A DNA stretch of 64,000 nucleotides, taken from Parvibaculaceae bacterium (lineage in GTDB: Bacteria; Pseudomonadota; Alphaproteobacteria; Parvibaculales; Parvibaculaceae). Under the pieces are notes generated by a model that was given only the letters and a program-made list of their open reading frames with translations, was not told where the DNA came from and did not search any database. Within the stretch, counting starts at the first letter, position 1, and every line of letters begins with the position of its first letter. The stretch covers positions 620,001 to 684,000 of the forward strand of contig JAPWJY010000008.1 in the NCBI GenBank assembly GCA_028283765.1, in the 5' to 3' direction. Made by a program: the position numbers and the translations under genes. Shown piece after piece: positions 28,739-30,633 of this stretch.

Positions 28739-28813
28739 GTCCCCATCGTCTAGCGGTCAGGACATCACCCTCTCACGGTGAAGACCGGGGTTCGATTCCC
28801 CGTGGGGATACCA
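28739..28813 (+). tRNA. tRNA-Glu (anticodon CTC)
   Basis: The sequence folds as a cloverleaf: acceptor GTCCCCA (28739-28745) with TGGGGAT, anticodon stem TCACC/GGTGA around loop CTCTCAC, and T-loop GTTCGATTC. The anticodon CTC is at 28772-28774. The discriminator is A28810 and CCA is encoded at 28811-28813. It reads GAG codons. Confidence 0.95.
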
Positions 28814-28932: not shown

Positions 28933-28960
28933 TTGATGTTCTCTTAATGTTCCATATGGA
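28933..28960 (+). promoter_or_regulatory. SOS-controlled promoter of umuDC with alphaproteobacterial LexA box
   Basis: GTTC-TCTTAAT-GTTC at 28938-28952 is an exact match to the alphaproteobacterial LexA box (GTTC-N7-GTTC). It overlaps a promoter with TTGATG (28933-28938) and TATGGA (28955-28960), 16 bases apart, just upstream of umuD. LexA binding would block RNA polymerase until DNA damage. Confidence 0.8.
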
Positions 28961-28974
28961 AACGGAGCATGACG

Positions 28975-29367
28975 ATGGATGCAGGGGAATTGCCGCTCGC
29001 CTATACCGGTGGCGAAACCACGGGGTTTCAGTCGCCCGCGTCAGATTATATCGAGCAGGGGATCGACCTTTCGGATGTTCTGGATCTGGACAAGCCGGGC
29101 GTCTATCTCGTGCGGGCCTCCGGCCAGGCGCTGGCTGCCCGGGGCATTTTCGAGGGCGATGTTCTTGTCGCCGACACGGCGGCCCCTCCCCGGGCGGGCG
29201 GCGTCGCGATCGCCTTTGTCGATGGCGAATGCGTGCTCGCCACCCTGGCGTACCGGGAGGGCGCATGGCACCTCCTTTCAGCCGACGGCGGGCGCGCGCC
29301 GCGTCCTCTGGGCGAAGGGGCTGCGATCTGGGCCATGGCGGCGGCGCTGGTCCGCACCGAGGTGTAA
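28975..29367 (+). CDS. umuD: UmuD-like protein lacking the catalytic Ser and Lys
   Basis: The product aligns along its length with UmuD: GFQSPASDYIEQGIDLSDVL, YLVRASGQALAARGIFEGDVLVAD and VAIAFVDGECVLATLAY. In E. coli UmuD the nucleophile Ser60 sits in ASGDSM and Lys97 in TVKKL. Here the aligned residues are A52 and A89, so this protein should not self-cleave; the Cys-Gly cleavage site is also T16-G17. It overlaps no gene, sits three bases before umuC and has its own SOS box. The start ATG 28975 is chosen for its GGAG spacing; ATG 28969 is the alternative. Confidence 0.85.
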   Translation: MDAGELPLAYTGGETTGFQSPASDYIEQGIDLSDVLDLDKPGVYLVRASGQALAARGIFEGDVLVADTAAPPRAGGVAIAFVDGECVLATLAYREGAWHLLSADGGRAPRPLGEGAAIWAMAAALVRTEV

Positions 29368-29370
29368 CGG

Positions 29371-30633
29371 ATGCCCGCTTTCGCTCTGGTGGACGCCAAC
29401 AATTTCTACTGCTCGTGCGAACGCGCCTTCGATCCGGCCTTGCAGGGCCTGCCGGTGATCGTGCTGAGCAACAATGACGGCTGCGTCATCTCGCGGAGCG
29501 AGGAGGCCAAGGAACTGGGGGTCGCCATGGGCGCGCCCTGGTTCCAGATAGAGCAGGGCCCCGATGCCGCCTCCATCCGGCAGTTCAGCTCCAACTATGC
29601 CCTTTATGGCGACATGTCGCGCCGCATTCTGGAGGTGCTCCGGCGCTGGTCATGGAAGGTCGAGCCCTACAGCATCGATGAGATGTTTCTCGATCTGTCC
29701 GGCTTCGGTGGCGATCTGGTGGCGCGCGGCCATGCGATCCGGCGCGATGTGCTGCGGGAAACCAAAATTCCCACCTGCGTCGGCATCGGCCCCAGCAAGA
29801 CCATCGCGAAGCTCGCCAACCATCTGGCCAAGCAGCGGCCGGAATATGCCGGCGTCTGCGATCTGACGGACCCGGAGGCGCGGGCGGTTGTTTATCCTTC
29901 TCTTCCGGTTGGCGAGATATGGGGCGTGGCCGGGGCGACCGGCAGGAGGCTTGCCCGCATGGGCATTCAGACCGTCGATCAGCTTGCGGCGCTGGATATG
30001 CGGCAGGCGCGCGATGCCTTCACCGTGATCGGACAGCGCCTTGTCATGGAGCTGCGCGGCACCTCCTGCCTGCCGCTGAACATGCTCGCGCCACAGCGCA
30101 AGGGCGTGGCGGTGACGCGCAGCTTTTCGCACGCGGTGACGGACTGGCGCGAGATGAGCGAGGCGGTTGCCACCTATGCGACCCGCGCCACGGAGAAGCT
30201 GCGGCGGCATGGCCTTGTCGCGGCCGGCATGACCGTCTTCATGCGGACCAACCGGTACAATGGCGACCCCAGCTATCGCGGGCAGGTGAGTTACGAGATC
30301 GAGCCGACGCAGGATTGCCTCATCCTGATCGGCGAGGCGCTGCGTGGCGCGCGGTCGCTCTGGCGGCCCTCATACAGGTATTTCAAGGCCGGGGTGATGC
30401 TCCACGATCTGTCGCCGGTTGGCCGTATGCCCGCTTCGATGTTTCCGACGCGCGATCCCCGGGCGTCGGCAAGGATCATGACGGCGCTTGACGCCGTCAA
30501 TGCGCGGTTCGGACGCGACACGCTGCGGCCCGCCGTCACGGGCATTGCCAGGGAATGGGCGACGAAGGCCGAATACCGTTCGCCGCGCTACACCACGCGC
30601 ATCGATGAAATCATGAAGGCGGTCGCGATCTGA
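29371..30633 (+). CDS. umuC: Error-prone Y-family DNA polymerase V catalytic subunit UmuC
   Basis: The 420-residue protein has the UmuC palm motifs: ALVDANNFYCSCERAFDP with the first metal-binding Asp, VVLSNNDGCVISRS, and YSIDEMFLDLSG with the catalytic Asp-Glu. The thumb (PTCVGIGPSKTIAKLANHLAK) and little finger follow. It synthesises across DNA lesions. It would be induced with umuD by the SOS box upstream. No frameshift is seen, so the polymerase looks intact. Confidence 0.95.
   Translation: MPAFALVDANNFYCSCERAFDPALQGLPVIVLSNNDGCVISRSEEAKELGVAMGAPWFQIEQGPDAASIRQFSSNYALYGDMSRRILEVLRRWSWKVEPYSIDEMFLDLSGFGGDLVARGHAIRRDVLRETKIPTCVGIGPSKTIAKLANHLAKQRPEYAGVCDLTDPEARAVVYPSLPVGEIWGVAGATGRRLARMGIQTVDQLAALDMRQARDAFTVIGQRLVMELRGTSCLPLNMLAPQRKGVAVTRSFSHAVTDWREMSEAVATYATRATEKLRRHGLVAAGMTVFMRTNRYNGDPSYRGQVSYEIEPTQDCLILIGEALRGARSLWRPSYRYFKAGVMLHDLSPVGRMPASMFPTRDPRASARIMTALDAVNARFGRDTLRPAVTGIAREWATKAEYRSPRYTTRIDEIMKAVAI

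Follow-up and report, generated by a model that had tools for sequence, protein, structure and literature searches.

In E. coli, UmuD has to cleave itself before the error-prone polymerase can be switched on, and textbooks present this self-cleavage as a safety catch on the SOS polymerase that is most mutagenic. The umuDC locus considered here raises the question of how such a polymerase might be controlled when its UmuD lacks the catalytic residues for cleavage and lies next to an umuC that is intact. It was found on a stretch of 64,000 nucleotides from a Parvibaculaceae bacterium, the whole of which is called the window below, and consists of the following parts (window positions):

28938 to 28952, plus strand: LexA-type box GTTC-N7-GTTC, seen in the sequence with the letters GTTCTCTTAATGTTC
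28964 to 28967, plus strand: GGAG, by eye a probable ribosome-binding site
28969 to 29367, plus strand: UmuD homologue without the catalytic dyad, 132 aa (130 aa with the start at 28975), recognised by PF00717, phmmer and Foldseek
29002 to 29025, plus strand: clade-specific N-terminal arm motif Y-x-G-x-x-T-T-G, from the clade alignment
29128 to 29130, plus strand: codon of Ala54, at the position of catalytic Ser60 in the alignment
29239 to 29241, plus strand: codon of Ala91, at the position of catalytic Lys97 in the alignment
29371 to 30633, plus strand: umuC, Y-family polymerase, 420 aa, with the Pfam domains IMS, IMS_C and DUF4113

The upstream gene umuD is separated from umuC by a gap of 3 bases; the end given in the initial annotation, 29370, had to be corrected to 29367, as it lies 3 bases beyond the stop codon. 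Two in-frame starts are available, 28969 and an ATG at 28975, of which the latter appears to have the better spacing from the GGAG at 28964-28967. Residues are numbered here from 28969 (A54 and A91); counted from the ATG, they are A52 and A89.

The initial annotation had placed Ala at the positions of both Ser60 and Lys97 and Thr-Gly at the cleavage site of a UmuD whose fold is retained, and all of this was borne out. The best PDB match of the window UmuD is E. coli UmuD (phmmer, 3.4e-15), and in the ungapped phmmer alignments to E. coli UmuD and UmuD’ A54 falls on Ser60 and A91 on Lys97, while Thr18-Gly19 is aligned to the E. coli Cys24-Gly25 cleavage bond. Peptidase_S24 (PF00717) is matched with 36.8 bits at a cut-off of 23.3; the score for the NCBIfam UmuD family NF007621 (65.3 bits) is below its cut-off of 110. 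An AlphaFold model with a mean pLDDT of 83.4 gave UmuD’ (1umu, 1.9e-7) as the top Foldseek match, and in a structural alignment (VIA-align) residues 42-132 were placed on residues 48-139 of UmuD’ 1ay9 with a Z of 14.0, a value tied with those for the C-domains of lambda repressor and LexA. This alignment begins at an offset of 6, in agreement with the offset of the sequence alignment. The arm was modelled with low pLDDT in the window protein and also in a dyad-bearing control, and AlphaFold is therefore uninformative on arm docking. Among the hallmarks of the UmuD class the window protein thus has the S24/LexA-type C-terminal fold and the pairing with umuC, under LexA control to judge from the box, and lacks both the Ser-Lys dyad and the Ala/Cys-Gly bond after a 24-residue arm, with Thr-Gly in its place and a median arm length of 12 in the clade described below. 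A dyad at some other position was ruled out, since the protein contains a single lysine, K42, and the structural alignment revealed none either. Self-cleavage of the window UmuD does not seem plausible.

A tblastn search against plasmids yielded homologues with 46-57% identity in Roseomonas, Acidiphilium, Acetobacter, Lichenicola and Acidithiobacillus, most of them annotated as S24 family peptidase (11 viewed); this annotation is misleading, as the clade proteins are predicted pseudoproteases. When a single genome of each species was scanned with profiles, using patterns that contained TTGF or the xxxIDL stretch and not the dyad, 72 clade loci were obtained, mainly from Acetobacterales, and in addition from Brevundimonas, Hyphomonadaceae and single others. 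Judged by its sequence, the window UmuD is a member of this clade and no lone mutant. Four members come from MAGs labelled Opitutaceae, Bordetella, Acidobacteriia and Marinimicrobia (L053, L059, L078 and L110), labels which possibly reflect binning errors or mobile DNA.

For comparison we assembled 152 distinct cores, comprising the clade and dyad-bearing UmuDs of the class and phylum. Fragments and broken copies (L094, L103, L104, L039, L109, L042, L110, L111, L115 and L116) were dropped before residues were counted, as were L179 (search motif absent, its genome matches the UmuD family), the LexA of the window’s own genome and a second match in L112; L105, a fused broken copy with Ser kept and Arg in the Lys column, is among the 152 and excluded from the 68 distinct clade sequences. 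The earlier suggestion to examine by alphaproteobacterial alignment whether the Ser/Lys loss is fixed in a clade could be answered for Lys97: it is kept in 0 of 68 clade sequences versus 81 of 81 other proteobacterial UmuDs, and the trees concur. Ser60 is kept in 6 of 68 versus 79 of 81, the clade column consisting of 41 A, 11 T, 9 G, 6 S and 1 N. The remaining 2 of the 81 have Cys; these are alphaproteobacterial UmuDs with Lys97 retained (L132 and L190). Thr precedes Gly at the bond in 68/68 clade sequences versus 4/81 of the dyad-bearing others. The arm motif is strongly conserved in 67 clade sequences (Y12 97%, G14 99%, T17 and T18 100%), while position 18 of the 81 non-clade UmuDs is A in 80%, C in 15% and T in 5%. 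In length the clade arm ranges from 6 to 22 residues preceding the Gly (median 12), compared to 24 in E. coli UmuD and 18 ahead of the core Gly in the window protein. Lys97 is absent as well from 24 clade loci found in IMG/VR (23 distinct sequences, partly from the same contigs). A search of open-licence PubMed Central papers returned no description of a dyad-less UmuD clade; what appears to be new relative to known UmuD is a natural clade, dyad-less and predicted to be uncleavable, beside an intact UmuC.

Broken dyad-less umuDC copies were noted on plasmids and chromosomes (L039, L042, L100, L103, L104, L105, L109, L111 and L115), those on plasmids being L039 and L042. Two Spirosoma UmuD homologues (L113:3911-4357 and L114:3911-4357) carry Ala at Ser60, Arg at Lys97 and TTGF, and both sit outside the alphaproteobacterial clade; in L114 umuC is broken into two frames.

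That another intact UmuD might serve the UmuC of the window was raised by the initial annotation and is rejected. In the 3.24 Mb of its own genome PF00717 matched three proteins, namely LexA with intact Ser and Lys motifs, the window UmuD and a signal-peptidase-like protein of 110 residues, and this profile search found no other recognisable UmuD. This last protein lies at L002:970-1812 next to a gene that seems to encode a nickel superoxide dismutase, which it follows as the apparent maturation protease. A second UmuD was likewise missing from 40 genomes picked from the 72 clade loci, mostly named isolates: in 40/40 no other recognisable UmuD was found and LexA only, in a check that covered matches better than E 2e-10. 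Matches above LexA look by score and place like clade copies, part of them having been read, and some of these genomes carry two such copies. The next-best match, fetched once per genome, is LexA-like, with an HTH motif in 40/40 and a Gly-x-Ser-Met motif in 39/40.

In the UmuD tree, computed with the dyad columns removed and L100 additionally excluded, the 67 dyad-less rows form one side of a branch with SH-aLRT 100. The UmuC tree likewise separates 59 clade rows (support 99), with the window sequence the first to branch within them (support 98). Both trees are compatible with a single loss in the clade. Over all rows K versus not-K requires 2 changes, the second being Spirosoma, and the Ser60 column at least 11; it therefore seems that Lys was lost in one event and that Ser eroded on several occasions.

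The partner umuC had been described as intact, and so it is. In the window UmuC the motifs LVDxNxFY and YSIDE are both intact and a RecA-NT-like segment lies at residues ~366-385, so that the protein combines the catalytic carboxylates, RecA-NT segment and DUF4113 tail of the UmuC class; its score of 387.2 bits is below the NF002955 cut-off of 431. The role of the RecA-NT segment is treated in PMC6511836 and PMC11791011. All 59 clade UmuCs in the alignment keep the catalytic Asp, Asp and Glu as well as the Tyr gate, and in the RecA-NT-like segment Asp, Asn and Gly are each present in 98%; at most clade loci umuD and umuC are tightly paired. Several UmuC residues are found in the clade only, M105 (95% in the clade, 0% outside), C14 (86%, 0%), P99 (93%, 0%), W71 (85%, 0%) and K132 (97%, 0%), partly at the active site, with C14 beside the Tyr gate and P99 and M105 around YSIDE. 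Models presented in PMC11791011 place the UmuD’ arm near the UmuC active site, and the clade-specific residues suggest that the UmuD arm and the active-site region of UmuC may have co-evolved.

The LexA box GTTC-N7-GTTC reported upstream of umuD is indeed present at 28938-28952. We rejected it as stand-alone evidence, with 3 GTTC/GAAC-N7 boxes observed in the 64 kb window and ~1.5 expected from base composition. It is the recurrence of the box upstream of clade umuD genes that is significant, because in 57 of 69 loci one lies no more than 250 bases ahead of the GF codon, against a background of 0.04 per 250 bases over these loci. The 12 loci without a box, largely from Roseomonas and kin, count against the reading preferred below. 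The lexA gene of the window’s own genome has an upstream box of like type, GAACCAAACTAGAAC.

Two functions had been proposed for this protein, a constitutively UmuD’-like partner or one that holds UmuC inactive. The first fits better, since the arm is short, UmuC is intact in 59/59 cases, and UmuD-delta18 is UmuD’-like though uncleavable. According to PMC5342242, this E. coli variant with a 6-residue arm adopts a UmuD’-like conformation while uncleaved, with low but detectable mutagenesis, and mutagenesis is severely impaired in UmuD8 (S60A), which is also uncleavable. Loss of cleavage is thus costly in E. coli. The clade protein would not simply be UmuD’ either, because an arm of 6-22 residues remains, with high conservation around the bond. 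We regard it as likely that the protein is an uncleaved, UmuD’-like accessory subunit of Pol V which partners UmuC without proteolysis, controlled by LexA and RecA binding. In this lineage an ancestral UmuD would first have lost Lys97, its general base, in one event; the nucleophile Ser60 would then have drifted and the cleavage bond have become Thr-Gly. What remained would be a UmuD’-like beta fold with a shortened, clade-specific arm that pairs with UmuC as made. In published models of Pol V this arm extends towards the active site of UmuC, and left uncut it would still fit. Pol V activity would depend on LexA derepression together with RecA binding at the retained RecA-NT segment, the delay step of RecA-stimulated UmuD processing being absent. 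The polymerase of the clade is probably switched on more simply than in the textbook scheme, with RecA binding probably controlling Pol V alongside LexA. A further point counted against this reading is that the window UmuC has MPASMF in place of the QxxLF-type clamp motif seen in many clade members. If the reading is true, a large natural clade without the catch would imply that transcription control and RecA binding can suffice, and the clade would offer natural material on the role of the arm and of its removal.

The second proposed function, a lock or checkpoint resembling full-length UmuD that holds UmuC inactive or slows replication and leaves Pol V active seldom if at all, we consider unlikely. 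It could draw on the retained and conserved arm of the clade, and on UmuD8 S60A, which according to PMC5342242 greatly cuts mutagenesis and sensitises cells to UV at high copy. However, the arm is half as long as that of E. coli and all catalytic residues are kept in every clade UmuC; a lock would leave the intact polymerase unexplained. It is quite improbable, too, that the arm is trimmed to a UmuD’-like form by another protease or by LexA in trans. A LexA that carries the Ser and Lys motifs is present, but the bond in all 68 clade sequences is Thr-Gly and not Ala/Cys-Gly, and to our knowledge there is no known case of LexA cutting UmuD in trans. In E. coli, the active site of one UmuD can cut the arm of another in trans (PMC5342242). 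Still less probable is that the protein has left Pol V for another partner such as DinB, the clamp or an SRAP-type protein, and that umuC persists on other grounds. E. coli UmuD manages several polymerases (PMC3901139) and SRAP genes occur near 15 clade loci, yet the tight umuD-umuC pairs and the matching clades of the two trees speak for a continued association.

Despite the clearly broken copies (L100, L103, L104, L105, L109, L111 and L115, and on plasmids L039 and L042), a decaying relic without function is hardly credible and was rejected for the clade as a whole, which extends over several orders with recurring LexA-type boxes and shows a dN/dS below 0.5 in 64/64 close pairs with usable divergence (median 0.082; the pairs share branches, so that they are not independent, and include none with the window copy). 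These values indicate that clade umuD is under purifying selection.

With E. coli UmuD and UmuD’, the window protein and its relatives share the beta fold, the core start GFxSPAxDxxE, the order umuD-umuC and the LexA-type box; they differ from E. coli UmuD in that the clade has neither Lys97 nor an Ala/Cys-Gly bond, the window protein no Ser60, and the arm is half as long. HumD of phage P1 is naturally UmuD’-like. Its likeness to the window protein lies in a short product that needs no cleavage, although the score for HumD (NF051876) is 42.6 bits at a cut-off of 120. Short arm, uncleavability and UmuD’-like conformation are shared with UmuD-delta18, which is engineered (PMC5342242), retains an active site competent in trans and has an arm unrelated to YxGxxTT. 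YolD/YqjX, the Gram-positive partner of YqjW/UvrX, is a small analogue of UmuD, and its N-terminal arm has been proposed to enter the Y-family polymerase (PMC6511836 and PMC12926913); it is a separate family with the SH3-like core alone in common, whereas the window UmuD belongs to S24 by true homology. In Acinetobacter, UmuDAb is likewise a UmuD with a changed job, but it still cleaves and carries an extra N-terminal part that binds DNA (PMC8565304), neither of which is expected of the window UmuD, with its 18 residues before the core Gly and no added N-terminal DNA-binding domain.

The IMG/VR scan yielded 61 loci, the 24 of the clade and 37 from a distant lineage (L230-L266, matches at ~3001; L266 was too short and left out). 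The Lys97 column contains Arg in 19 of 20 distinct UmuD-like sequences of this lineage, one sequence being frame-shifted, and the Ser60 column, uncertain due to a two-residue gap, reads S 7, D 6, K 3, E 2, N 1 and T 1. The RecA-NT segment is absent in 14 of 17 distinct adjacent UmuCs and kept in 3. One neighbouring gene encodes a type IX sorting domain, which points to Bacteroidota. Tentatively, and with slightly more doubt than conviction, we suggest that Pol V was freed from RecA-stimulated proteolysis more than once: in the alphaproteobacterial clade by a single event, with a UmuC that has the RecA-NT segment and altered active-site residues and with the unprocessed arm as a working part, and in the distant lineage as a mini-Pol V that would need RecA at neither step.

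Some features of the gene neighbourhood may be added. In 15 clade loci (L035, L036, L037, L048, L053, L054, L055, L057, L058, L060, L064, L065, L068, L104 and L111) the stretch that was fetched includes a gene for an SRAP (SOS response-associated peptidase) protein, which is divergent from umuD in annotated plasmids. On a Lichenicola plasmid an ImuA-like gene, annotated as damage-inducible mutagenesis protein, is located directly 5’ of dyad-less umuD and umuC (L038:1657-2487); a search of the window’s own genome for ImuA, run without a positive control, gave no match. Among 38 genomes sampled from other genera of the family, none gave a UmuC-like match stronger than 1e-30, and in the nearest relative, the same-genus genome G001, an umuC with 93% identity is present on a contig that begins inside the gene. 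In the window, tRNA-Glu(CTC) at 28739-28813 lies directly 5’ of umuDC. In the relative G005 the tRNA is close to the contig end, too near for the insertion to be dated. G005 likewise has it near rluD and is without umuC, so that umuDC may have arrived beside this tRNA gene.
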